Below, piece by piece: positions 1,130 to 32,478 of a DNA stretch of 35,983 nucleotides (position 1 is its first letter; each line of letters starts with the position of its first letter). Position numbers and translations under genes: made by a program. Location: IMG/VR virus record IMGVR_UViG_3300021960_000233, positions 1 through 35,983 of that record, one strand, 5' to 3'. The notes under the pieces were generated by a model, which saw only the letters and a list, made by a program, of their open reading frames with translations, had not been told where the DNA came from and did not search any database. The DNA is from a virus.

Positions 1130-1993
1130 TTAAGCCGGTAAAGCAATAACTAAACCTGACTCTGGACGGTAAACGTCTAAGCCATAAAGTGTATCAGCAG
1201 TGTACAAGGTTGCTAAGAACTCTTGCTTATACTGAGTTTGTGAACGTACAGCCATTTGCTCGCATAATACGAACGCATCTTTGTGCATTAACAGACCGGC
1301 TTTAACACCAGTTTCCATGACAGGAGCGTTAGTAGAAACGTAAACGTCAATACCATACAACGTACCAATCTTACCAGTAGATACGCTACGTCCGTCTACA
1401 AAGTCTGCTGAGTTATAACGGTCAATACCACGAATCTCATTAACAGCAGAAGGTGGGATTACTAAACAACGACCGTCCATTGGAACGTTTTCGTCATCAA
1501 GTGCTTGGATAAGGTCACGGAAACCATTATCGTTGAAAGCACCAACATCAGCAGTACCGTCTGCATCGTATGCTTCAGCAGCGCCAGTAGTAGCGTTAAA
1601 CTGATAAGCAGCAGAGTGAACCCAAGAAGAACCGTCACCGTCACCTAGTTTCTTACCTAGTGCAAACAAGTCTTGGTCAACTTTAAGACCTAATGCATAG
1701 CCTGCATCTTCTGTGTAGAAACGACGAAGTGAATCGAACGCTTGTACGTCTGTAATGTCTTCGATAAGACGTGAATACTCGAAGTGACTGTCGATAGTAA
1801 TAATCAATTCATCATTGGTGTTTTGCTGAATAGTTACTGTATCGGCAGCAGTCTTAGCGTTAGCTGAACCACGAGTAGGTTTAGGGATATGCATCGTATC
1901 CCCTTTTTTGCCCTTCATAGGCATCTTTTGAACTAGGTTTGCTAGTACAAGAGATTTCTTATATGCAGCGATAACTTCATCACTCCACAATTC
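1130..1993 (-). CDS. Major capsid protein, exon 2
   Basis: This encodes residues 23-309 of the capsid protein, beginning E-L-W-S-D-E-V-I-A-A-Y and ending at TAA 1132-1130. The open frame alone would have to start at a TTG at 1996 with no ribosome binding site, and it lacks the usual capsid N-terminus. That N-terminus lies 587 nt upstream at 2581-2646. Joining the two gives ...ATHFIP/ELWSDEV..., the continuous motif expected in this capsid family. Later landmarks are KGDTMHIPKP and a long region rich in D, Y and G. The protein would form the icosahedral shell, with an HK97-type fold inferred from family knowledge. It lies between scaffold and tail fibre. The splice is inferred and not shown experimentally. 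Confidence 0.9.
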   Translation of the reverse strand, partial: ELWSDEVIAAYKKSLVLANLVQKMPMKGKKGDTMHIPKPTRGSANAKTAADTVTIQQNTNDELIITIDSHFEYSRLIEDITDVQAFDSLRRFYTEDAGYALGLKVDQDLFALGKKLGDGDGSSWVHSAAYQFNATTGAAEAYDADGTADVGAFNDNGFRDLIQALDDENVPMDGRCLVIPPSAVNEIRGIDRYNSADFVDGRSVSTGKIGTLYGIDVYVSTNAPVMETGVKAGLLMHKDAFVLCEQMAVRSQTQYKQEFLATLYTADTLYGLDVYRPESGLVIALPA

Positions 1994-2580
1994 CAAATAG
2001 CATTACGGCTATTCCGACTATCGCATCACAAGACAGCTAATATAGCTTCCTGTGCCTGTTCACTTAGTCTGTGCGGGTCACGCTTCAATCGCTTCATCTC
2101 ATCTTTAAGAACTTTTACAGCTTCTGCTGATAAACTACGTCCTTTAACGTGTGTTTCCATCCAAAGAGCTAACTTTGTTTGTTCACGTTTTACGATGACG
2201 TGATTCTTAATATTCCTTAAAAACGTACAGGCTCTATTATAGCCTGACGCATTCCAAGTTATAGAATCACTCCAATTAGGATTAGTTACTGTACGGTATT
2301 CTCTATTGCCTTTGTAGTTGTTACAAATAGTGTCCATAAGCTCTTCAGCTACTACACACATTGTAATTCTAACTCTAGGCTGAACATAGTAGGTGTCTCC
2401 ACGTTTATTAACTACAACGTCTATACAGCCTTCTCCGTCTACTAATCCTGCGATATACTTCCAACTTAATCTCTTCATACTACCTCCGTAGTGAACTTAG
2501 TGATTGGTCTGTCGTGTTCCCTCTGGTTACTTTCGCTCCCAGTTATTCAGAACAGGTTTTACATCCCCAAATTATAGGCT
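1994..2580 (-). other. Group I self-splicing intron in the capsid gene
   Basis: Minus-strand intron of 587 nt. The 5' exon ends ATCCCT. An internal guide GGGGAT lies 12 nt inside the intron and pairs with it fully, giving a U-G pair at the splice site (P1), as group I chemistry requires. The last intron base is G and the 3' exon begins GAATTGTGG. The 5' core has a CTGG...CCAG stem and the segment GTTCACTACGG. The 3' core, after the endonuclease gene, has GATAGT, which can pair with ACTA (P7), followed by the hairpin CGG-AATAG-CCG (P9). The endonuclease ORF sits between these halves, where P8 loops often carry ORFs. Removing the intron restores the capsid reading frame. Confidence 0.88.
2026..2478 (-). 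CDS. Intron-encoded LAGLIDADG homing endonuclease
   Basis: 150 aa. Residues 9-17 (I-A-G-L-V-D-G-E-G) match the LAGLIDADG helix, with E16 at the catalytic acid position. Only one such motif is visible, so the enzyme would work as a homodimer. The family cleaves intronless alleles at a long target site, copying the intron into them, and some members also help splicing as maturases. The gene lies wholly inside the capsid intron, starts at ATG 2478 behind GGAGGTAGT, and ends 32 nt before the 3' splice site. The predicted target is the joined capsid sequence around codons 22-23. Confidence 0.9.
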   Translation of the reverse strand: MKRLSWKYIAGLVDGEGCIDVVVNKRGDTYYVQPRVRITMCVVAEELMDTICNNYKGNREYRTVTNPNWSDSITWNASGYNRACTFLRNIKNHVIVKREQTKLALWMETHVKGRSLSAEAVKVLKDEMKRLKRDPHRLSEQAQEAILAVL

Positions 2581-2646
2581 AGGGATAAAGTGAGTTGCAT
2601 TTGCTTTAGTAACTGTGTTACTGGTTGATGGTGTTAAGTTAGCCAT
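2581..2646 (-). CDS. Major capsid protein, exon 1 (22 codons)
   Basis: ATG 2646-2644 starts MANLTPSTSNTVTKANATHF followed by I-P, then the sequence runs into S-L-stop if not spliced. This is the standard N-terminus of podoviral capsid proteins and fits exon 2 (1993 onward) in frame. Together they give 309 residues. The start lies 28 bp after the scaffold stop, with an AAACTT-rich leader. Unspliced message would give only a 24-residue peptide, so capsid production depends on splicing. Confidence 0.88.
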
Positions 2647-2674: not shown

Positions 2675-3502
2675 TTATTTGACTCGCCCTTCTGAATAGG
2701 CTTGTCTAATCTCGGCAGCTAAACTCTGATAACGTTCAGGGTCTTTTGCCATTAGTTCTACAATGTCTGCACGTCTGTAGATTTTCTTTCTGCTTGGTTC
2801 GCCAGAGCCTTTAGTGTTGCCTGTTGAGCCTGATTTAACAGACTGTCTGCGAGCGTTTGTCTCGGTCTGAACAGCGGAATTAACCATCTCCTGTCGTTCT
2901 TTCCAAGATGTGAACAACTCATCAGCGCTGTCATAATCATAAGCATCAGCCTGACGTAGCAGTTGAGAGCGAACCTTTGACTTACCTACCCATTCAATAA
3001 ACTTAGCATCAGATACAATATTAGTGAAATCTGGATGGTTAGCCTTTAGTTGTGCAACAGTGTTTTGTTGCGCTAGGTGGTTTGCCATTTGTCTGCTTTG
3101 TTGTACTGATGGATGGTTCTCTAGCATTCTTGAGATAGCTTGTTTTGGATTCTCAAAGAAGTCTAAATCGTCAAGGTCATCTTCAGCCTGTACAGGGGCT
3201 TGTTTTTGTTGTTGTGCAATAGTTTGTGTCTGTATGAAGTTATCAACGACTTTACGTAGCTCACCTACTTCAGAAGATTGCTTGCCTAAGAGCTTTTCAG
3301 CGTTCTGGTGCATAGCAACAATATCTTTAACATCCTTACCTTTGTACTTCTCTGGTAAGTCATCTTCGACTTCTGGTTCTTGCTCAGGTGCTGCATAGTC
3401 TTCGTAGCCTCTTGATTCCGGTTGTTCCTCTACAGGAGCTTCATCAAAGGTTTCAAAGGTTTCTTCGTTGTAGTCTTCTGGACGACTATTTTCATTTGCC
3501 AT
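2675..3502 (-). CDS. Scaffolding / capsid assembly protein
   Basis: 275 aa, acidic and hydrophilic. The N-terminal about 50 residues are rich in E, D and P. The family-typical segment LPEKYKGKDVKDIVAMHQNA is at about residues 49-68, followed by E-V-G-E-L-R-K-V-V-D. The middle is Q-rich helical, with E-D-D-L-D-D-L-D-F-F near residue 110, and the C-terminus is basic (RKKIYRRADI). It should assemble the procapsid with the capsid protein and then be expelled. It sits directly before the capsid gene, as expected. It shares the 3838-3866 promoter with the small gene upstream. Confidence 0.85.
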   Translation of the reverse strand: MANENSRPEDYNEETFETFDEAPVEEQPESRGYEDYAAPEQEPEVEDDLPEKYKGKDVKDIVAMHQNAEKLLGKQSSEVGELRKVVDNFIQTQTIAQQQKQAPVQAEDDLDDLDFFENPKQAISRMLENHPSVQQSRQMANHLAQQNTVAQLKANHPDFTNIVSDAKFIEWVGKSKVRSQLLRQADAYDYDSADELFTSWKERQEMVNSAVQTETNARRQSVKSGSTGNTKGSGEPSRKKIYRRADIVELMAKDPERYQSLAAEIRQAYSEGRVK

Positions 3503-3803: not shown

Positions 3804-3837
3804 GTTACCCTCCTAGGCATGATTGTATATACTATAT

Positions 3838-3866
3838 ATTATAACACATTTTTATTCAAATGTCAA
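3838..3866 (-). promoter_or_regulatory. Sigma70 promoter A (scaffold/capsid operon)
   Basis: On the minus strand, TTGACA (3866-3861), a 17-bp spacer ending TGT, and TATAAT (3843-3838), so both hexamers match consensus and an extended -10 TGn is present. It is followed by ATATAGTATATA, shared with promoters B and D. It fires into the gene starting at 3803. The upstream AAAAAGC is also shared with promoter B. Confidence 0.9.
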
Positions 3867-3874
3867 GCTTTTTC

Positions 3875-5869
3875 TTAATTTATTTCTTGACTTTGTGATT
3901 GAGCTGTGTTAGGCGCTGTTTTACTAGCTATATCAGCTTCTTGACGCTGTTTCTTTAACGTCAGTTCAGCCAATCTCATACGCTTCTCAAACTCTCTATC
4001 GTCTGCATCACCCTCTCTAACATTAGTCGATGCAGCTTTGATACGCTGTGTCTCAGAGTTGTATTGTTCCAGACCGGCTTCCACTTGATACTTCTGCGCT
4101 CTAGCATTTGCTTCAGCTGCTTGTGCATTAAGGGCTGCTGCTGTAGCTTGCTCTTTAGCCATCTGTAACTGCATTTGTTGCATCTGCATTTGCTGCTCTT
4201 GTTGAGCTGCTTGTTGCTGTTCAGGTGTAGGTTGTTGACTTTCACGAATACGTTTAATCATCTCTTCACGATTAGACAAGTTCATGTTCTCAACAATACT
4301 TTCAATCAGCATTGAATGCGTTGGACTATCAGCAGGCATTGTCTGTAACAATTGAACAAGCTGTGTAACCTCATACTCACGTGCCATCATACCAAGGGTT
4401 GACGTAGGAATGAATTTAAAGTCCTGTGCAGGGTAGAGTTCAGGGTTGTACTGCATGTAACGCCAAGCTGTTTTCTGTACCATTGGAATCAGGAACATTT
4501 CTTGGAAGTTAATCAGAGTGCGCTTGTGACGCTTTATAATCGCTCCAAGTGACATACTGATACCAGCGGCAGTGGCTTCTCCGTTAACGCCTCCTGCAAC
4601 GCCTGAGGAGTCTACAGCGCCTGTTGCTTGCTGTACCATCTGTTCTAGCTGACCGGCTTGTGCAAATGTTACTTGACCTACTTGACCGAAGTTAAACGGT
4701 TGTAACACTTCAGCAGGATTACCATTAGTAAGGAATATTTTACCCGGTCGTACTTCTGGCTTCATTCCTCGTGGTAGACGTGACGCATCAATAGCCATCA
4801 TTGGATGGATGGTTAACGCTAACGCATCAATACGGGCACGTAACTCTGTATCTAACGCTTTCTGTGAGTTATATCCTTTCTCACAAACACCCCGACCCCA
4901 GAAGCGATTAGGGACAACATCCCAAGGGAATGCTACGATAGGGCGGTCTTGCATCATATAAGGGTTTTCTTCAACCTTCATAAGCACACCGTTAGCTAAA
5001 ATAACAATTGCTTCAATGTATTCGCTTTCATCTTCGTCTTCGTCACTTAAAGAAACAACCTCTTCATCGTCCTCTTCAGCTATTGCATTGTTAAACAAGT
5101 CACGTGGCACTAAGCCATAATACTTAACTAATCTAACTTTATCTTCAGGGTAGTGAGATAGTTCTCGGTCAGGCTCTAAATCTGTATCGGTACTAGCAAT
5201 GCCTACATCTTCATCATTGTACACGCCTTGTTCTTGTAACATTCTAACTTGATGTGTAGGTACAAACTGGTCAACTGCACAGCCTAAAGCGTCCTCTACA
5301 GTAGAAGCTACAGGGTCAATCAAGAAGTTCTGTGGTAAGACAGGGTTTAGCTTTACAACGAAACGGTCTGCAATCTCAACGCCTACAGCCTGCATAGCAC
5401 CTTCCATAATAGGCTGTGTAGCAGGTTTCATTTCTTTAACTTCTTCAATCACTATCTCACCGATACCTGTACCGTAGATAGCACCGTTAAGAATAGCTTC
5501 TGCTACTGTTTTACGTGCTTTAGTGAATGTAAAATCTTCTTGTAGTTGATTGCGAATCTGTTGAATATCCACTTGGTTTTGGTCTGCAATATCATCACGA
5601 ATGTCAAACCACTTACCACGTCCAAACGTTGCTTCTTCTACTTCGGCTACTGAGCTTTCGACTGCTTGCTGTAAAGCCGGTGCAATTAGTTTAGAACGTT
5701 CTGATTCACGTAATGTGTCTGAGCCATCCCATATACCACGCCATAAGCGGAAATACTCTTCGTGCTTTTCTTGATAGTTTGATTCGTAGTGGTCACGCCA
5801 CTCTTCGCACTTATCCAACACCCATGATTCTAGGCTTTGTTCCATGTTAAAATCTTCATAATCTGTCAT
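3875..5869 (-). CDS. Portal (head-tail connector) protein
   Basis: 664 aa. The N-terminal part has F-R-L-W-R-G-I-W-D-G and a helical segment typical of podoviral portals. A central region contains the motifs FPWDVVPNRFWGRGVCEKGY and VDSSGVAGGVNGEATAAGIS. The C-terminus from about residue 543 is Q/A-rich and probably coiled (runs of QQMQMQQ), ending with charged helices. The protein forms the dodecameric ring through which DNA is packaged and ejected. It begins 16 bp after the large terminase stop and is longer than T7 gp8 because of the Q-rich tail. Confidence 0.9.
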   Translation of the reverse strand: MTDYEDFNMEQSLESWVLDKCEEWRDHYESNYQEKHEEYFRLWRGIWDGSDTLRESERSKLIAPALQQAVESSVAEVEEATFGRGKWFDIRDDIADQNQVDIQQIRNQLQEDFTFTKARKTVAEAILNGAIYGTGIGEIVIEEVKEMKPATQPIMEGAMQAVGVEIADRFVVKLNPVLPQNFLIDPVASTVEDALGCAVDQFVPTHQVRMLQEQGVYNDEDVGIASTDTDLEPDRELSHYPEDKVRLVKYYGLVPRDLFNNAIAEEDDEEVVSLSDEDEDESEYIEAIVILANGVLMKVEENPYMMQDRPIVAFPWDVVPNRFWGRGVCEKGYNSQKALDTELRARIDALALTIHPMMAIDASRLPRGMKPEVRPGKIFLTNGNPAEVLQPFNFGQVGQVTFAQAGQLEQMVQQATGAVDSSGVAGGVNGEATAAGISMSLGAIIKRHKRTLINFQEMFLIPMVQKTAWRYMQYNPELYPAQDFKFIPTSTLGMMAREYEVTQLVQLLQTMPADSPTHSMLIESIVENMNLSNREEMIKRIRESQQPTPEQQQAAQQEQQMQMQQMQLQMAKEQATAAALNAQAAEANARAQKYQVEAGLEQYNSETQRIKAASTNVREGDADDREFEKRMRLAELTLKKQRQEADIASKTAPNTAQSQSQEIN

Positions 5870-8540: not shown

Positions 8541-8565
8541 GACCTATTTAGTCTATATACTATAT

Positions 8566-8594
8566 ATTATAGCATACTTTTAAGCAAATGTCAA
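8566..8594 (-). promoter_or_regulatory. Sigma70 promoter B (late block, small terminase)
   Basis: On the minus strand TTGACA (8594-8589), 17-bp spacer ending TGC (extended -10), TATAAT (8571-8566), then ATATAGTATATA. The 15 bases around the -35 box match promoter A. It directs transcription leftward into the terminase-lysin-portal genes. Confidence 0.9.
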
Positions 8595-8679
8595 GCTTTT
8601 TCTTCTACTTTCTGTTAATTAATTACTACTACCATTTAACTAGACAGCTAGTCATCCCTATGCGCATGTTCTGTATAGC

Positions 8680-10977: not shown

Positions 10978-11198
10978 TGAGATGTTTAGCATGTAACGTA
11001 GAATTAAATGATTATGAGAGTACAAGACGCAATAACGATGGGGAGTATTTAGATTTATGTAACTATTGTTATAATAGCGTTAAAGAGGATGTAACAGTGG
11101 CAACAAATCACGACACTGGTATTGTAGACCATGGCTTAATAGACAGTAGCATAAACTTATTTGTAAATGATTACGCTCCTACTATTGACAACGAATGA
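10977..11198 (+). CDS. Small zinc-ribbon early protein
   Basis: 73 aa. C-L-A-C near residue 4 and C-N-Y-C near residue 28, after the stretch ELNDYESTRRNNDGEYLDL, form a likely zinc ribbon. Proteins of this form occur before the primase-helicase in many T7-like phages. The acidic C-terminal half has no motif. Promoter E overlaps its 3' end. Probably a protein- or nucleic-acid-binding regulator. Confidence 0.7.
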   Translation: MRCLACNVELNDYESTRRNNDGEYLDLCNYCYNSVKEDVTVATNHDTGIVDHGLIDSSINLFVNDYAPTIDNE

Positions 11199-11213
11199 AA
11201 AACATGATAAAAT
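11185..11213 (+). promoter_or_regulatory. Sigma70 promoter E (replication genes)
   Basis: TTGACA (11185-11190), 17-bp spacer ending ATGA, TAAAAT (11208-11213), so extended -10 TGn is present. The downstream ATATTACTATATAGT is identical to that after promoter C. The -35 box lies inside the zinc-ribbon gene. It reads into the primase-helicase leader. Confidence 0.85.
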
Positions 11214-11222
11214 ATTACTATA

Positions 11223-11291
11223 TAGTTTGCTTCAAAGCCTTTTAAGAATGGTTTTTGTTACCATTACAAAAAACCACTATAAAGCAAACTA
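11223..11291 (+). promoter_or_regulatory. Structured leader RNA before primase-helicase
   Basis: The transcript from promoter E should begin at about 11220. An outer stem TAGTTTGCTT/AAGCAAACTA (11223-11232 with 11282-11291) encloses an inner stem TGGTTTTT/AAAAACCA (11249-11256 with 11269-11276). An alternative inner stem AATGG/CCATT (11247-11251 with 11261-11265) uses some of the same bases and so excludes it. No T-run follows. The layout suits a leader that shields the message end or switches expression. Confidence 0.6.
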
Positions 11292-15305: not shown

Positions 15306-15334
15306 TTGACAGCCTATAAAAACCATGCTATAAT
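15306..15334 (+). promoter_or_regulatory. Sigma70 promoter D (SSB and nucleotide genes)
   Basis: TTGACA (15306-15311), 17-bp spacer ending ATGC, TATAAT (15329-15334), followed by ATATAGTATATA as at A and B. The region just downstream also holds an inverted repeat ATATATAGT/ACTATATAT (15333-15341 with 15356-15364). It begins 4 bp after the polymerase stop and drives the SSB gene. Confidence 0.9.
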
Positions 15335-15395
15335 ATATAGTATATAAAGTAACAAACTATATATATTTTTACAATAACCCGAAAGGAAAATTATT

Positions 15396-23877: not shown

Positions 23878-25110
23878 CTAAAACCTCCCAAAAAAGTCAG
23901 TCTCTATGTTTTGTCTTTCTCTCAGGCTGTTTACTTCACGCCTTTCTTTCGCTTTAGCCGCTTGTTCCATTGCCTTAGCCTTTGCTATCTTTTCAGCACG
24001 AGTCGCCACAATAGTATCTAACTCTGCCTGACGTTCATTAGCTTGCTTTTCAGCTCTTTTACGGTTAAACTCTTTACGCTCTGTGAAGTAACCCTTCAAG
24101 CTGCCTTTCTTATCATAATACTCCAACTGTGCACTTGATTCCTCAATAGCTACACTGTTTAGCCTGTTTAGTGCTGCAAACCACTCCTTCAATGCTTCCG
24201 GGTTGGCTGTACTAGGGAGCGTACCTTTTAATACCAACTCAACATCCTTATCAGTAGCAACACCCGGCGGTAAGTTACCAATAGCCTGCGCTACTCGCAG
24301 CGTCTCAATACGTGCCTTTAAAACACTTTCTGTATTCTGCGTACCAAATACATCCTTAAATATAGCGTTTATCTGTGCGGCTGCACCTGCCGTAGGTTTT
24401 ACGCTATCCAATAACTGCGTAATGGTCTTTATCTCAAGATTTTTACGTCTTAGTGTTGCTGTTTCATCTAGCAGGTTATTGTAACGTTCTGTATCTTTTG
24501 CTGACAAATCCTTTTCAGCTGCTGTTTCAGCCTCTTTTGAGGGGTATTTTAGTAAGTCCCTACCACTTCCATTTTGATTCTGTTCAGCCTCTATAGCAGC
24601 TATACCGGACTCAGCAGTTATACTACCGTTATTAACACCAAGCTGTACAGTCTTTATAAAATCTGCTGCTGTATTCTGAGGTGCGTCAGGTAGTCCATAT
24701 TTATTAATAACTTGCTCTGCTCGTTTACCTGTAGGGTCTTTCTGTATCGCCATTAACAAGTTGCTTGCTGCTTCCTCATTTAACGCAGGGGTTGCATATA
24801 TGGCATTTGTTGCTTGCTCACGAAGACTAGCTAATTCAGCTTCTCTTTTCTCTTTAGCCTGAACAGCCATCTGCTCACGTCTACCCATAGCAGGTACATT
24901 ACCCATCACAGCATTACCTAACTCTCGACCACCCTCTGTAGCCGAGCGAGCAGCGCCTGAGTAGGCTGATAAGAACCTACCCATAGCGTCATTACCGTAG
25001 TTAGCACCTTGCATACGAGCCTGTTGAGCCTTCTGCCGAGCCTCTTGGTCAAGTATTCTACCTAGTTGTGGATTTGCTTGAGCTAACAAGCCTTGCATTT
25101 GCTTGTCCAT
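23878..25110 (-). CDS. Internal virion protein, probable
   Basis: 410 aa, highly helical and charged (A/E/K/Q/R-rich). Landmarks are G-N-L-P-P-G-V-A-T-D-K-D-V-E (about 275-290) and a long C-terminal charged helix (ATRAEKIAKAKAMEQAAKAK). It begins on the last base of the previous gene's stop and ends one base before the next start. Neighbouring large proteins suggest the trio forms the ejected core. Not recognised further. Confidence 0.7.
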   Translation of the reverse strand: MDKQMQGLLAQANPQLGRILDQEARQKAQQARMQGANYGNDAMGRFLSAYSGAARSATEGGRELGNAVMGNVPAMGRREQMAVQAKEKREAELASLREQATNAIYATPALNEEAASNLLMAIQKDPTGKRAEQVINKYGLPDAPQNTAADFIKTVQLGVNNGSITAESGIAAIEAEQNQNGSGRDLLKYPSKEAETAAEKDLSAKDTERYNNLLDETATLRRKNLEIKTITQLLDSVKPTAGAAAQINAIFKDVFGTQNTESVLKARIETLRVAQAIGNLPPGVATDKDVELVLKGTLPSTANPEALKEWFAALNRLNSVAIEESSAQLEYYDKKGSLKGYFTERKEFNRKRAEKQANERQAELDTIVATRAEKIAKAKAMEQAAKAKERREVNSLRERQNIETDFFGRF

Positions 25111-27536
25111 TATTGTGAACCTCCGCCTACGAATATATTACTAATAGCACGTAACAACTCCGCATCCAATGTAGCACCACCAAGCCCTAACTCTTTCAGC
25201 ATACCTAATTCGGCAGTACCTAATTGAGCTAATGCACTTGTACCTGCTAACTGACCTGCTTGCTGTAACTGTGCTTGTTGTAGTGCAGGTGATAACATAG
25301 CCAACTGCTGTTGTAACGGAATACCCGATGCAGACAACGCTTGTGTAATGTTAGCCAACTGCTGACCTTCCATCTGAGAAGGTAACATAGAAGCTTGCTG
25401 ACCCATACCGAACATACCTTGTGCTCGTGCTAAGTCTTGCATCCCTAACTGTCCACCTAACTCTTGCGACTGTAACCCTAACCCTAACAAGCCTTGACCA
25501 AGCTGTTGCTGCTGTGTGCTAATACCTGCACCGGTCTGTGCAATCTGTGCAGCCAACTGTGCAGACGACTGTTGTCTACTCAAACCTTCAGACTGTAGCT
25601 GTGAAGCAATCTGTTCAGCAGACATACCAAGCTGTGCAAGCTGTGAAGCACGTGCCTGTGACTCCGAATCAAGCGCTGATTGAGCCTGTTGAGCACCAAT
25701 ACCTGCCTGACCTAGTTGCATTTGCTGACTAAATCCTTCAGACGCTAACTGCGCTTGAATCTGTTCAGCACTCAAACCTAATTGAGCCAACTGAGCTTGT
25801 CTGTTTTGCATCTCAGACTGTAGAGCTGATTGAGTTTGTGTAGCTTGTAAGTTAGCACCTGCAATAGCCATATCTTGACTAAAGCCTTCAGACAACAACG
25901 CATTCTGAACCTGTTCAGCTGACATCCCCATCTGACGCATCTGATTAGCTCTGCTTTGAGCTTCAGACTGTAACGCTGATTGAGTCTGTGCAGTCTGTAA
26001 ATCCGCTTGACCAAGCTGCATACCTTGACTGAAACCCTCTGAAGCCAGTTGGTTCTGAATCTGGTCAGCCGATAGTCCAAGCTGTGCAAGCTGTGCTTGA
26101 CGCTGTTGTACACTAGACTGTAAGTTTTCTTGTGTGGTTGCTTCAGACAGTTTAGCCTGTCCAAGTTGCATCTGTTGTCCAAACCCTTCACTGTCAAGTT
26201 GTGCTTGAATCTGTTCACCTGATAAGCCCATCTGACCAAGCTGTGAAGCCCTTGCTTGTTGTGATGTAGCTAACTGGTCAGCCATACTCATAGACTGTAA
26301 TGAAGCAGTGTTACGAGCTTCTGCTTGTGCCTTCTCCATAGCTAACTGTTCAGGTGTACCACCATAAGCTGCTGTGTTAACGCCAAGTCTACCTTGGGCA
26401 GCTAAACGATTCTCTAATGCAATACGTTGACGTTCTTCTTCTGGTGTCTGTGTAGCTCGAATCTGGTCGTAAATAGAAGAAGCTGTTGGTGTCTCGCCTG
26501 ACATAGCCTGTTGAGCCTGTGATAATAACCCTTGACTAAATTCACCTGCGCCTGTACGTGCTGTAGGTGCTTCAATACCTGCAAATGCACCTTGTACGTT
26601 CTGAGCCTGTGCACCTAAATCAGCTTGACCAAGTGCCTGACTAGCTAGTTGTCCTGCATTACCACTAAACTGTGATGGAGCTACTCCGCCAAACGCACCA
26701 CTAACATCAGCATATTGACCTGCTGCGTCAACACCGCCCATTGCTTGATTCTGTACAGCCTGTGCAGTACCTGTCTGGAAAGGACTACCACTAATACCAC
26801 CAAACATACCTGATACATCTGGAGCTTGTGCGCCAAAGTCCATACCTTGTGTAGCTGCTTGTCCGATGTTGCCGGCTGTACCTGATACGTTAGGTGCTTG
26901 TATACCGCTAAATGCTCCTGTAACGTCTGCTCCGCTGCCTGCGAAGTTAGCCTGACCTGACAGACCTTGCAAGCCTAATAAGCCCTGAGAAGGCTGTCCA
27001 GAAGCTGTTAAGCCCTGTGTAGTCATTGCAGTCTGTAGACGCTGTAACTCAGCAGGTGATTGAGCGTTAGCTATCTGCTGATTGCCCATATTAGCATACA
27101 TACTACCTAACTGGTTTGCTCCAAATCCACTATTAGCACCCATAGCTTGTTGAGCTTGTCCAAACGCTTGAGCGCCTGTTGAGCCTAATCCGGCTACACC
27201 CTGACCTAAACCACCCATCATACCCATAGCTTGTTGCTGTAGAGCCTGTTGGTTAGGGTCTTGTGATAACGTCAAACCTTGGTTGTCGAATGTACCAGTA
27301 CCTGCACCAGAAGTAACAGTGAATGGTTTAAATGTTGTACCACCTGCAATCTGTTCAGCTAATGATTGACCACCGGCTGTAACACCTGAACGTGACATTA
27401 AATCGTTCTGTATAGCTGTTAAATCACCCTTACCTTGGTTAATAGCGGCATTCGTAGCTGCTAAGCCTGTTGCGCCTGCTGCGATGTTACCTACGTTACC
27501 TGTAATATTATCCCATAAATCACCTAATAAACTCAT
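25110..27536 (-). CDS. Large repeat-containing virion protein
   Basis: 808 aa, extremely rich in Q, A, G and L. Residues about 203-324 have four units of about 36 aa of the form D-V-S-G-A-F-x-G-I. Residues 429-655 have 4.5 exact-length 50-aa units (starting at 429, 479, 529, 579, 629), each with L-A-Q-L-G-L-S-A-E-Q-I-Q and S-E-G-F-S-Q. The N-terminus is short and hydrophobic. Probably an internal virion or tail protein forming helical rods. Plus-strand and other-frame ORFs in the region are compositional shadows. Confidence 0.75.
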   Translation of the reverse strand: MSLLGDLWDNITGNVGNIAAGATGLAATNAAINQGKGDLTAIQNDLMSRSGVTAGGQSLAEQIAGGTTFKPFTVTSGAGTGTFDNQGLTLSQDPNQQALQQQAMGMMGGLGQGVAGLGSTGAQAFGQAQQAMGANSGFGANQLGSMYANMGNQQIANAQSPAELQRLQTAMTTQGLTASGQPSQGLLGLQGLSGQANFAGSGADVTGAFSGIQAPNVSGTAGNIGQAATQGMDFGAQAPDVSGMFGGISGSPFQTGTAQAVQNQAMGGVDAAGQYADVSGAFGGVAPSQFSGNAGQLASQALGQADLGAQAQNVQGAFAGIEAPTARTGAGEFSQGLLSQAQQAMSGETPTASSIYDQIRATQTPEEERQRIALENRLAAQGRLGVNTAAYGGTPEQLAMEKAQAEARNTASLQSMSMADQLATSQQARASQLGQMGLSGEQIQAQLDSEGFGQQMQLGQAKLSEATTQENLQSSVQQRQAQLAQLGLSADQIQNQLASEGFSQGMQLGQADLQTAQTQSALQSEAQSRANQMRQMGMSAEQVQNALLSEGFSQDMAIAGANLQATQTQSALQSEMQNRQAQLAQLGLSAEQIQAQLASEGFSQQMQLGQAGIGAQQAQSALDSESQARASQLAQLGMSAEQIASQLQSEGLSRQQSSAQLAAQIAQTGAGISTQQQQLGQGLLGLGLQSQELGGQLGMQDLARAQGMFGMGQQASMLPSQMEGQQLANITQALSASGIPLQQQLAMLSPALQQAQLQQAGQLAGTSALAQLGTAELGMLKELGLGGATLDAELLRAISNIFVGGGSQ
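25572..26252 (-). repeat. 150-bp tandem repeats (50 residues), 4.5 copies
   Basis: Five unit starts fall exactly 50 codons apart (R429, R479, R529, R579, R629). Conserved positions include Q-L-x-Q-x-G-x-S-x-E-Q-I and S-E-G-F-x-Q-x-M-Q-L-G-Q. Units differ at many codons, so expansion is old or maintained by selection. Confidence 0.85.
26565..26930 (-). repeat. Second repeat family, about 36 residues, four copies
   Basis: Unit cores at residues about 203 (A-D-V-T-G-A-F-S-G-I), 239 (P-D-V-S-G-M-F-G-G-I), 276 (A-D-V-S-G-A-F-G-G-V) and 312 (Q-N-V-Q-G-A-F-A-G-I) are spaced 36-37 residues apart. They precede the 50-residue repeats in the same protein. Confidence 0.75.
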
Positions 27537-27769: not shown

Positions 27770-29274
27770 TATACTACCCTTCCTAATACGGATTGCGCTG
27801 TTATTCTTTGAACTGAAATTGGACTACCATCAATGTTAACTTCCACACCTAGCTGTACAACTGAACCGGCTGAAGAGGCGTTAACACTTGGTCTATTAAC
27901 CAGTATCCCTTGATTGTATTCACCCACTCCAAACTCTGCAATCCCAAACTCAGCTATATTCTGCTCTGGTAATACAAACGCTCGTTTCTTGTAAGCGAAG
28001 TCATAATCGTAGCCGTAGTTTAATGTAACACTTGTGTCACTACCGCCAATAAATGTTATCTTTAAATTCTTAAGCATCTTCAAGTTAGAAGGTGCTCCAA
28101 AGTCTAAATAGTTTGTGAAGTAGGACATCTGATAACTACCACCACCAGAGCCATCTGTTGTTACTCCATCTAAATGCCCTGTGTATTTTGTAACGCCTGT
28201 TTCTTTACCAAGCAGTACATCATTCTCAACAGTCCTATACAGTAAACATAAAGGATTAATAGCATTCCAACGTGTAACACGACTTGAACCATCTTCTAAG
28301 TTGCCACGCATGTCGAATACATACACAACACCTGCACCACGAATGTTTAGCAAGTAGAAGGCTTCATCGGGTGAATAGACTGAACCGTAGCTGTAACCGG
28401 CTGTCAAATAACTGCCTAGCTCGTTACGTACGTTTTTAGACATATCACCAATAGGTGCTGACTTCTCTTGTATTGTACGGTTAATGGAACGAACACCTGT
28501 CTCAGATAAGAAGATTAAATCATTACCTGTGTTCTGTATCGTTCTGTGTTCTAAACAGCCTATGCCAACTATTGTGTCAGCTAAAGCCATTGTTGCAGGG
28601 TCTGATGCACCGCTGTAAACAATTATCTGACGCTTACCAAAGATGAACAAGAAGTTGTTATGTGTAGCTAAACCGGTGATAACGTCACTACCGCCTGACC
28701 ACACTTTACTAACGTCTATGCTGCCTGATGAGCCTGTATTCCAAGCTGCACCGATTAACAAGTCTGAGAAGTAAACAACTGTACCGTCTGCTACCCATAG
28801 CCTACCAAAAGCAGACAGTGGTATATTACCTTGTGGTACAGTGCCTGCATAGTTAGGGTGGTTGCTAACTAAATCACATGTTGTACCGTCATAATACAAA
28901 GGGTCTGTACCTTGACGGAAGATGTATGTAATGTTATTTAATGTAGCGTAGTTGTACTGTCCATCACTAACTGTATAGCCCGTAGGCGTTATATCTGTGA
29001 GTGTCTCTTCACCCTTGTAGATGGTAGAGGCTGTTGCGCTAATTAGCTCTGAAGAGCCGTCAGCATTAATATGCTCGTGCATGCTAACAACAGCATCACT
29101 TGTTGTGTTTAGGAATTGATAGCCCTTCCTAGCACCTATTCGACCAAATCTATCAATAACACAGTTCTCAGCTGTCAAGGCAAACTGTTCAGTAAGACCT
29201 GTTGGACTGTCCTGTGTATTTAAGCCGTAAAAACCCGGTGCTTGTATAACTATACTCTGTAGTGGCTTTGCCAT
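27769..29274 (-). CDS. Tail tubular protein B-like (tail nozzle)
   Basis: 501 aa. The N-terminus has the family signature A-P-G-F-Y-G-L-N-T-Q-D-S-P-T (about 12-25) and C-V-I-D-R-F-G-R-I-G-A-R-K-G. Beta-rich repeated Y/S/G segments follow. It forms the lower tail tube in T7-like phages, although this one is shorter than T7 gp12 (794 aa). It follows the tail tubular A-like gene, as in T7. Confidence 0.85.
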   Translation of the reverse strand: MAKPLQSIVIQAPGFYGLNTQDSPTGLTEQFALTAENCVIDRFGRIGARKGYQFLNTTSDAVVSMHEHINADGSSELISATASTIYKGEETLTDITPTGYTVSDGQYNYATLNNITYIFRQGTDPLYYDGTTCDLVSNHPNYAGTVPQGNIPLSAFGRLWVADGTVVYFSDLLIGAAWNTGSSGSIDVSKVWSGGSDVITGLATHNNFLFIFGKRQIIVYSGASDPATMALADTIVGIGCLEHRTIQNTGNDLIFLSETGVRSINRTIQEKSAPIGDMSKNVRNELGSYLTAGYSYGSVYSPDEAFYLLNIRGAGVVYVFDMRGNLEDGSSRVTRWNAINPLCLLYRTVENDVLLGKETGVTKYTGHLDGVTTDGSGGGSYQMSYFTNYLDFGAPSNLKMLKNLKITFIGGSDTSVTLNYGYDYDFAYKKRAFVLPEQNIAEFGIAEFGVGEYNQGILVNRPSVNASSAGSVVQLGVEVNIDGSPISVQRITAQSVLGRVV

Positions 29275-29934: not shown

Positions 29935-29960
29935 CTGTTTATTCCTTACTATATAGTAAT

Positions 29961-29989
29961 ATTATAGCATGTTTTTGTTTAAATGTCAA
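29961..29989 (-). promoter_or_regulatory. Sigma70 promoter C (tail genes)
   Basis: On the minus strand TTGACA (29989-29984), 17-bp spacer ending ATGC, TATAAT (29966-29961), then ATTACTATATAGT as after promoter E. It overlaps the 3' end of the 830-aa gene and starts the tail tube and ejection gene message. Confidence 0.9.
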
Positions 29990-32478
29990 GAGAAAAGTTC
30001 ATTATTTAACAAAGGATTGTTTCGTAAGTCTTCAAATTGATATTGTTCACCATACTGTGTACGCATCTTAACTAGTGCGCTTTTATCAGCACTTGGCTGA
30101 CCAAACTTTTCTTGTGTAGCAGCAAGACCTGTATTTAAACCAGTCACAGCATCCCACAAACCACTTAACATATCTTGAACACCACTCATGTCAACATCAA
30201 GACCATCTATACTATCTAAAACACCTTCTATTTCTTCCTTGATAGGCTGTAAAACATTATCATCAAACCCTGCTAATTGCTCACGAACATATTTGTTTGT
30301 ATCAGATAAACCGTCTTTTAAGTTGCCTGCCATTGTCTCAATGTCGTCTTTTATAGGGTTTAAATAATCATCTTCAAAGCCTGACAACCCCTCTCTAAAG
30401 TCCTGATTAGTTTCCGACAATGCTTGTTGTATGTTATCTATATCTTGCTGAAAAGCCTTGTTAGTGTCTGACAAGTCCTGTTTAATTGGCTGTAGATAGT
30501 CTTTGTCAAAGTTAGCTAACTGGTCACGTACATCTTTATTTGTTTGTGACAGCTTCTCGTCAATAGGTTTAATGTAATCTTGGTTAAACGCACTTAACGT
30601 TGTGTCTACCTTTGTAATTACATCTTCTATATCTTTCTTTATAGGCTGTAGATTTTCATCATCAAACAATGCTAGTTGTGTTCTAACATTCTCATTTATT
30701 GTTGAAATCTCTTCTTTAACAGGCTGTAAATACTCTTTGTCAAAGTTAGCTAAATCTGTACGTACACTTTGATTTAGCTTAGAGAAATCTTCTTTTATAG
30801 GCTCTATAGCTGCTTGGAATGTCTCGTTCTGTTCAGACATATACTCTTGAACTTCGTCAATTATCTCACGCTGAACAAACTGATTAGCCTGTGAAGCTGC
30901 TTCTATAGCTCCTTGACCAAGAGTTTCAACGGTCTCAACAACAGGCTTGATAAAGTTCTCATTAGCCCATGAAGCTCCTTCAACTAACTTATCACCAATA
31001 GCCTTTATAGCTTCCGGTGTTTCCCAGTCTCCATTTCCAAAGTCAATGTCAAGGTCTATTTCCTTAATACCACCTTCTTTAACCCAAGTAGCTGCGCCTG
31101 ACTTAACACTATCCTCTAAGCTTTCACCTTGTAACTGCTTATCAATAACCTTAAGAATACCTGCTGTTTGTGCGTCAGAAGTACCTAGAGCCTCTTTAAT
31201 GTAACTTGCAGGTGAACCATTACCTGTTAAATCCAACGTGCTTGAGATAGCTCCTAGGACATCACCGCTGTCTACGGCTTTAATAATGTCAACACCGGTC
31301 TTGATAGACTGCATAGTGTCCGCAATAGCTATAGCTTCCTGTGTGGCGTCTACCGCTTCTGCCGCTACCTGTAGAGTCTCCACATGTTCCGCAAAACCTG
31401 CCGTTAAGGCTGACGTAGCTATTTCTTCTAGATTACCGCCTTGAGCCGCCGCAACAGCACCTGAAGCAAGCGCCGCTCCTGCTGTGCTACTGATACCTAA
31501 ACCTGCACTAAGAGCACTACCTGCACCGGCAGTTGCCATACTGAGCGCAATAGAAGCCGCTATTTTACCTGTCACTTCAAGGTCAGACACCTCATTTACA
31601 AGTTCAAACTTATTGTCCGTCCTATTAAACTTAATAAACAGACCGTCACCAACACGAATAGCTCCGCCCTGTAGCTCCTCAAGCCCTGTTAATATTCCTA
31701 AATCACCACCAACCTCTGTAGGAACTCCCCTAGCAGAGCCCGTAGATAAGACGCCAAAACCAATGTCAGGAACTTCAGTTATACTATTAGTTTCCCAGAA
31801 TTCTTTAGTCTGTGTGTCTTTCCAATTCTTATAAGTATCTGTGCTAATCAAAGAGTTCAAATAAGCTAACTTACCACCGGCAGAATCTATTTCCTCTAGT
31901 TTGCTGTTGACTTCCTCTTTATCATAAAGAATATTGTCATTGATAGCGGAAGACACCATATTGTTATATGCTGTTACGTTAGGCGCTTCTAAAGTTGACA
32001 TCTTATAAATATCGGCAGCATCACCGTATTTCACAACGTCCATAAATCCTGCACCAGAGCCAAAACCTTGAGAGCCTTGTACATTGCTTAAGGTGTCTAA
32101 GTTAGACGTAAATTCCTGTTGTTGTTCAGGGGCTAACTTAACACCAAAGTCCATCCCTAAGTCAATAGGCTTAGGCTGAACAGACTGTATAGCATCTGTT
32201 ATAGGGTCAGCAGGGGCTGCCGTGAGGTCTGGTGTAGTAGGGACAATAGCATTAGTAACAGCAGGAGAATACTTCACTTCTGGCTGCTTTGTTACTACTA
32301 CGTCTGCTGCGCCTTCTAAGACTTCTACTTTAGCTTCCGGTGTATTATTACTGACAATATCAATAGGGTCTGTTACTTTTTCTTCTTGTTTAGGCGCAAA
32401 GGCGCTAAAGTCAAAGTTATTCTTATTTAAGTTATTAGTGAAACCACCGCCAAACATACCCGAAAAGTTAAAATTCAT
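29986..32478 (-). CDS. Large virion protein with coiled-coil FD-YLQPIK repeats
   Basis: 830 aa. The N-terminus is N/F/G-rich, then a mixed region with an alanine-rich hydrophobic segment (about 307-345). Residues about 555-760 hold repeated units of the form V-R-x-x-L-A-x-F-D-x-D-Y-L-Q-P-I-K-x-D-I-x-x-x-N, five to seven copies, with heptad character. This is probably a fibre, spike or internal core protein. It sits between DUF5872-like and tail tubular A-like genes. I do not recognise a precise family. Confidence 0.7.
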   Translation of the reverse strand: MNFNFSGMFGGGFTNNLNKNNFDFSAFAPKQEEKVTDPIDIVSNNTPEAKVEVLEGAADVVVTKQPEVKYSPAVTNAIVPTTPDLTAAPADPITDAIQSVQPKPIDLGMDFGVKLAPEQQQEFTSNLDTLSNVQGSQGFGSGAGFMDVVKYGDAADIYKMSTLEAPNVTAYNNMVSSAINDNILYDKEEVNSKLEEIDSAGGKLAYLNSLISTDTYKNWKDTQTKEFWETNSITEVPDIGFGVLSTGSARGVPTEVGGDLGILTGLEELQGGAIRVGDGLFIKFNRTDNKFELVNEVSDLEVTGKIAASIALSMATAGAGSALSAGLGISSTAGAALASGAVAAAQGGNLEEIATSALTAGFAEHVETLQVAAEAVDATQEAIAIADTMQSIKTGVDIIKAVDSGDVLGAISSTLDLTGNGSPASYIKEALGTSDAQTAGILKVIDKQLQGESLEDSVKSGAATWVKEGGIKEIDLDIDFGNGDWETPEAIKAIGDKLVEGASWANENFIKPVVETVETLGQGAIEAASQANQFVQREIIDEVQEYMSEQNETFQAAIEPIKEDFSKLNQSVRTDLANFDKEYLQPVKEEISTINENVRTQLALFDDENLQPIKKDIEDVITKVDTTLSAFNQDYIKPIDEKLSQTNKDVRDQLANFDKDYLQPIKQDLSDTNKAFQQDIDNIQQALSETNQDFREGLSGFEDDYLNPIKDDIETMAGNLKDGLSDTNKYVREQLAGFDDNVLQPIKEEIEGVLDSIDGLDVDMSGVQDMLSGLWDAVTGLNTGLAATQEKFGQPSADKSALVKMRTQYGEQYQFEDLRNNPLLNNELFS

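Follow-up and report, generated by a model that had tools for sequence, protein, structure and literature searches.

Among the closest described systems to the locus studied here is that of the mycobacteriophage LittleE (cluster J), whose major capsid gene carries a probable group I intron with a LAGLIDADG/I-CreI-like ORF, and for which splicing was demonstrated by RT-PCR and N-terminal protein sequencing (PMC3706429). The lactococcal phage Tuc2009 reportedly has a capsid gene with a group I intron as well, as cited in the same paper (PMC3706429). Furthermore, the intron endonuclease of phage PhiPA3 aids the competition between co-infecting phages (PMC11620839). A preliminary description of the present locus had called introns in phage capsid genes unusual, which is partly right given these two precedents and the large family described below. 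Full-text searches of the open-access literature returned no description of this capsid-intron family.

The window, i.e., the whole stretch of DNA analysed here, comprises the 35,983 bases of a virus record and also codes for a portal, a terminase, DNA polymerase A, a primase-helicase, and ribonucleotide reductase subunits. Its major capsid gene lies on the minus strand, where an insert of 587 nt (2580..1994) interrupts it, giving the following parts:

2581..2646, minus strand: exon 1 of the major capsid gene, 22 codons, with the ATG at 2646 and the translation ending in HFIP at 2581; sequence MANLTPSTSNTVTKANATHFIP
1994..2580, minus strand: putative group I intron, 587 nt, missing at the exact site in 80 of 80 relatives, with a covarying core in 44 homologues
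1130..1993, minus strand: exon 2 of the major capsid gene, 287 codons plus stop, ELWSDEV...LPA

Exon 2 encodes the major head protein (PHROG 267, E 4e-50; Pfam Phage_capsid_2, E 5e-7), and the ATG of exon 1 is preceded on the same strand by a scaffold-like ORF (3502..2675). Upstream of the scaffold and capsid genes, an element at 3866-3838 on the minus strand agrees with TTGACA-17-TATAAT at 12 of 12 positions. Promoter-like elements recur at window positions 3826-3876, 8554-8604, 11182-11226, 15306-15352, and 29948-29992, and these appear to be a sigma-70-type promoter set belonging to the phage itself. The gene downstream of the capsid gene contains imperfect repeats at a 39-nt spacing (360-847, plus-strand coordinates) and is probably a repetitive structural protein. 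Five further repeats, spaced by 150 nt, are located at 25608-26245 within a large ORF (27536..25110).

The preliminary description had proposed a comparison with capsid genes lacking the insert. Using exon 2 as the query, we retrieved the 80 best capsid relatives from IMG/VR (L001-L080, 64-93% identical), and all 80 run straight through the junction, reading FIP/ELWSDE or FIP/EIWSDE, with a few QIWSDE (the slash marks the junction). Most of them have an ATG shortly upstream of the junction, while L050 begins at the junction and L051 and L056 have no start. The N-terminus encoded by exon 1 is fused to the exon 2 sequence in L001-L006 and L011, and in the 11 nearest relatives the bases of the two exons abut exactly at 2581/1993. 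Because the sequence of the relatives is continuous across the junction, the boundaries of the insert are known to the base without any structural assumption. The insert coordinates, the 22-codon exon 1, and the reading frame given previously are exact, according to both the translation and these uninterrupted relatives. Among the 80 intronless relatives, exon 1 ends in A in 66 and in T in 10; in the intron-bearing capsid genes at the main site, exon 1 ends in T, as the P1 helix requires.

The window is a metagenomic contig, and the insert might for that reason be attributed to a chimeric assembly. A second contig of 7,301 nt (L145) is 100% identical to the window, insert included, which argues against a one-off misassembly, with the proviso that it may represent the same virus population. 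As 43 additional, distinct introns with this build are found on other contigs, we give a chimera a vanishingly small probability.

To describe the RNA core, we assembled homologous introns from 64 IMG/VR loci found with the endonuclease as the query, plus additional ones found with a pattern for the P4 region. After removal of duplicates, 44 distinct introns remained, including that of the window, and all 44 share a common layout. The elements assigned in the window, in the order of the transcript, are as follows:

2581..2586, minus strand: P1 5' strand ATCCCT, the last bases of exon 1 with the U at the splice site, pairing with 2563-2568
2569..2574, minus strand: P10 guide TAATTT, pairing with the first six bases of exon 2, GAATTG (1993-1988)
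2563..2568, minus strand: P1 3' strand or internal guide GGGGAT, with compensatory pair swaps in other introns
2550..2556, minus strand: P3 5' strand CCTGTTC, 7 of 7 bases paired with 2055-2061
2523..2542, minus strand: P4-P5 stem-loop, CTGG 2542-2539 with CCAG 2526-2523 and a GAAA-capped P5; invariant P4, local fold
2493..2519, minus strand: P6 candidate (weak), GAAC 2519-2516 with GTTC 2496-2493, near-invariant and without covariation
2065..2069, minus strand: P7 5' strand GACTA, within the endonuclease frame, 100% paired with 2016-2020
2055..2061, minus strand: P3 3' strand GAACAGG, within the endonuclease frame, pairing in 44 introns
2027..2054, minus strand: P8, CACAGGA 2054-2048 with TCTTGTG 2033-2027, spanning the last endonuclease codons and the stop; local fold z -3.1
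2016..2020, minus strand: P7 3' strand TAGTC, pairing with 2065-2069
1996..2013, minus strand: P9 hairpin AATAGC/GCTATT, local fold; homologues have similar hairpins ahead of the 3' splice site

The P1 pairing of the preliminary description, with a terminal U.G at the cut, is exact, and other introns carry compensatory variants of it (ATCCCT/GGGGAT, GTCCCT/GGGGAC, ACGCCT/GGGCGT, and TTGCCT/GGGCAA). Our automatic search for P1 fixed the U.G and picked the best register, so that P1 percentages are optimistic; individual runs misplaced the register in L083, L111, L130, or L202. P3, P7, and P8 were taken at fixed offsets from landmarks and compared with two controls, one with shuffled partners, which ignores relatedness, and one with a strand slid by 1-3 bases, which does not. 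Across the 44 introns, P3 is paired at 99.7% (81% with shuffled partners, 45-55% when slid), P7 at 100% (4-37% when slid), and P8 at 95.8% (59% with shuffled partners, 33-50% when slid). More specifically, P3 occurs in 20 distinct strand combinations, nearly all of them fully paired, and P7 shows double changes of the GACTG/CAGTC type in five introns. Conservation of the protein cannot explain the match of the P3 strands, since the 5' strand is non-coding and the 3' strand lies within the endonuclease frame; in L111, a change of encoded residues in the 3' strand is matched by a compensating change in the non-coding strand. The P10 guide is paired with exon 2 at 84%, compared with 75% for shuffled exons, a value reached by none of 2000 shuffles.

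P4 is paired in all 44 introns and never varies, and it thus adds no covariation support; the P6 candidate is absent or altered in L140, L208, and L249. The 5' half of the intron, folded alone, was no more stable than its shuffles (z -0.8), and single-sequence folding was hence not relied on. The final base of the intron is G1994, in agreement with the previously proposed terminal G. Of the P7/P9-like flanks mentioned earlier, P9 does adjoin the 3' splice site, and the 5' strand of P7 is part of an endonuclease ORF, a circumstance the preliminary description passed over. It had missed this 150-aa LAGLIDADG gene altogether and did not list P3, P4, P6, P8, or P10.

The exact empty site in 80 relatives, in combination with covarying P1, P3, P7, P8, and P10 in 44 homologues, supports the original assignment of the insert as a group I intron. 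The same observations bear on the idea that the capsid gene is instead interrupted without RNA splicing, either by a translational bypass element or by a homing endonuclease gene that stands on its own. Related LAGLIDADG genes in cultured phages can indeed be free-standing, as in Cyanophage PP, where one is situated between the terminase and the portal. Neither arrangement predicts the P1, P3, P7, P8, and P10 pairings, whereas a ribozyme fits a 587-nt insert with stop codons that is bounded by these covarying helices at the exon junctions, and we consider both arrangements very improbable.

An Rfam search for a group I fold, as suggested by the preliminary description, returned no group I match in the whole window or in sub-stretches of it, at either gathering or permissive thresholds. 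The family member L111 gives a weak, sub-threshold match to RF00028 (Intron_gpI) of 16.3 bits (E 0.002; G008 28632-28874), at the place where its intron lies. Since even this member scores only below the threshold, the miss most likely reflects the limited sensitivity of the model to a divergent core split by an ORF; a match to RF00028 helps in detecting group I introns and is no requirement of their structure. The intron of the window has in common with RF00028 the P1, P3-P9 architecture (with P4-P6 as a candidate domain), the GACTA/TAGTC P7, and the final G, but it is not scored at any threshold.

The intron contains one gene, directly preceded by a small hairpin:

2479..2492, minus strand: hairpin ACTAC-GGAG-GTAGT holding the Shine-Dalgarno sequence, flush against the endonuclease ATG
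2029..2478, minus strand, stop codon 2026-2028: predicted single-motif LAGLIDADG homing endonuclease, 150 aa (Pfam PF00961, AlphaFold2, Foldseek)

The ORF matches Pfam PF00961 (LAGLIDADG_1, E 5.3e-7), and an AlphaFold2 model based on 29 family members reached a pLDDT of 95.2. In Foldseek, this model found I-CvuI as the best match (E 4e-9), followed by I-CreI and I-MsoI, with E-values up to 1e-6. The protein has both the LAGLIDADG motif and, in the predicted structure, the alpha-beta-beta-alpha-beta-beta-alpha fold, and W-K-Y-x-A-G-x-x-D-G-E-G is invariant in the 29 family members. The three endonucleases share the single-motif fold with the window's protein at an identity of only ~14-20%; they belong to introns in algal chloroplast rRNA, while the window's counterpart sits in a phage capsid gene. 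PHROGs labels the relatives of this endonuclease 'HNH endonuclease', yet the motif and the predicted fold are those of a LAGLIDADG protein. The match here is to PHROG 5046 and 12980, and the label looks wrong for the members matched. In one subgroup (L117-L126, L140, and L143), the endonuclease has an additional C-terminal Cys-rich, zinc-finger-like segment that is coded within the P8 loop.

The 3' codons of the endonuclease double as the P7 5' strand, the P3 3' strand, and P8. According to the model, the ORF begins downstream of P6 (GTTC, 2496-2493), runs through P7, the P3 3' strand, and P8, and stops at the end of P8, with its exact position being less firm because P6 does not covary. The hairpin ahead of it reaches 4 bp or more in 39 of the 44 introns, with differing sequence, and averages 4.4 bp compared with 2.3 in shuffles. 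By covering the ribosome-binding site, it probably limits endonuclease translation. This would fit the tight control of expression described for ORFs that overlap a group I core, an arrangement known from other introns (PMC3984707).

The LittleE intron resembles that of the window in lying in the major capsid gene, in following an exon that ends in U, in ending in G itself, and in having a LAGLIDADG/I-CreI-like ORF. It differs in its length of ~819 bp, in the opposite strand of its ORF, and in a class left unclear by its authors, the comparison being one of described features. Tuc2009 is likened on the basis of the citation, for its capsid gene with a group I intron. With PhiPA3, the shared feature is an intron-encoded homing endonuclease in a phage gene, the effect on competition being a PhiPA3 result only.

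An intact endonuclease also bears on the possibility that the group I intron has decayed and lost the ability to splice, leaving a shortened capsid protein started within exon 2 or a dead capsid gene. An in-frame TTG at 1996 does open an ORF through exon 2, but no ribosome-binding site is evident before it. Moreover, the core helices and both splice sites are all intact, the endonuclease has an open frame and a predicted fold with a pLDDT of 95, and the capsid N-terminus has been kept in exon 1. Decay is thus unlikely in the extreme, if slightly less so than the arrangements without splicing.

The homologous introns reside at the FIP/E-x-W site, except that those of L180 and L202 seem to lie a few bases further downstream. 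The capsids nearest to that of the window (85-93%) have no intron, and the closest intron besides the identical L145 is that of L191, with an endonuclease 75% and a capsid 67% identical. Host capsids are down to 23-35% identical where the endonucleases are up to 66% identical. Since the endonucleases are far more alike than the capsids, the intron has either moved between diverged capsid lineages or persisted for very long. Endonuclease and capsid divergence are nevertheless correlated overall (Mantel r 0.67), so that both probably apply, and an old or vertical origin may account for much of the spread.

Searches of 50,697 phage records with three family endonucleases (tblastn) did not find the intron, and blastn against phage records returned only matches of ~25-31 bases, none over the intron. 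A scan for the endonuclease in one genome per GTDB species gave 50 pattern matches with no relative among them. Cultured phages held only distant endonuclease relatives, some free-standing and some inside DNA methylase genes. Additional group I introns occur shortly downstream in the same capsid gene in L099 (3530-4420), L114 (3564-3834), L127 (3500-5000; apparently a second and a third, three in a row in all), and L140 (3700-4600), and these carry a double-motif LAGLIDADG ORF, no ORF, or HNH ORFs. The one in L114 scores 81.4 bits against RF00028. Their presence identifies the N-terminal region of the capsid gene as an intron hotspot.

We therefore take the major capsid gene to carry a mobile group I intron that combines ribozyme splicing with LAGLIDADG homing, and place the probability of this reading at roughly 0.94. 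The transcript would fold into a group I ribozyme (P1, P3-P9) that cuts after U2581 and joins exon 1 to exon 2, with P10 guiding the reaction to G1993, which would restore the frame HFIP-ELWSDE. The intron would supply an I-CreI-like LAGLIDADG endonuclease, probably a homodimer, whose last codons would also serve as catalytic RNA and whose translation the hairpin probably restrains. This enzyme most likely cuts intronless capsid genes at the conserved FIP/E-x-W motif, and repair would then copy the intron in.

As a mechanism this is ordinary, consisting of group I splicing and LAGLIDADG homing, and capsid introns have precedents. What looks new is a widespread lineage of introns at a capsid site that the Rfam model misses, and the breadth of this lineage. 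It is well supported that this Rfam-invisible lineage is specialised on one capsid site and has moved between unrelated capsid lineages. The endonuclease may, by analogy with PhiPA3, be a weapon that cuts the capsid genes of co-infecting phages. The full picture, a large Rfam-invisible lineage at one conserved capsid site in uncultured phages that moves between unrelated capsids and arms its carriers against intronless competitors, is a tentative one that we regard as possible and rather doubtful as a whole.

The capsid protein is among the most heavily expressed phage proteins, and it follows from the structure of the gene, as the preliminary description had anticipated, that capsid production would depend on splicing by a ribozyme for every copy made here. 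Introns that keep to one motif in strongly diverged capsids mark the N-terminal capsid segment as a homing hotspot. In such viral contigs, capsid gene calls are truncated at FIP/E-x-W with the N-terminus hidden from view, and curated intron searches miss the introns responsible. The family offers a testable setting for endonuclease competition over an essential gene.
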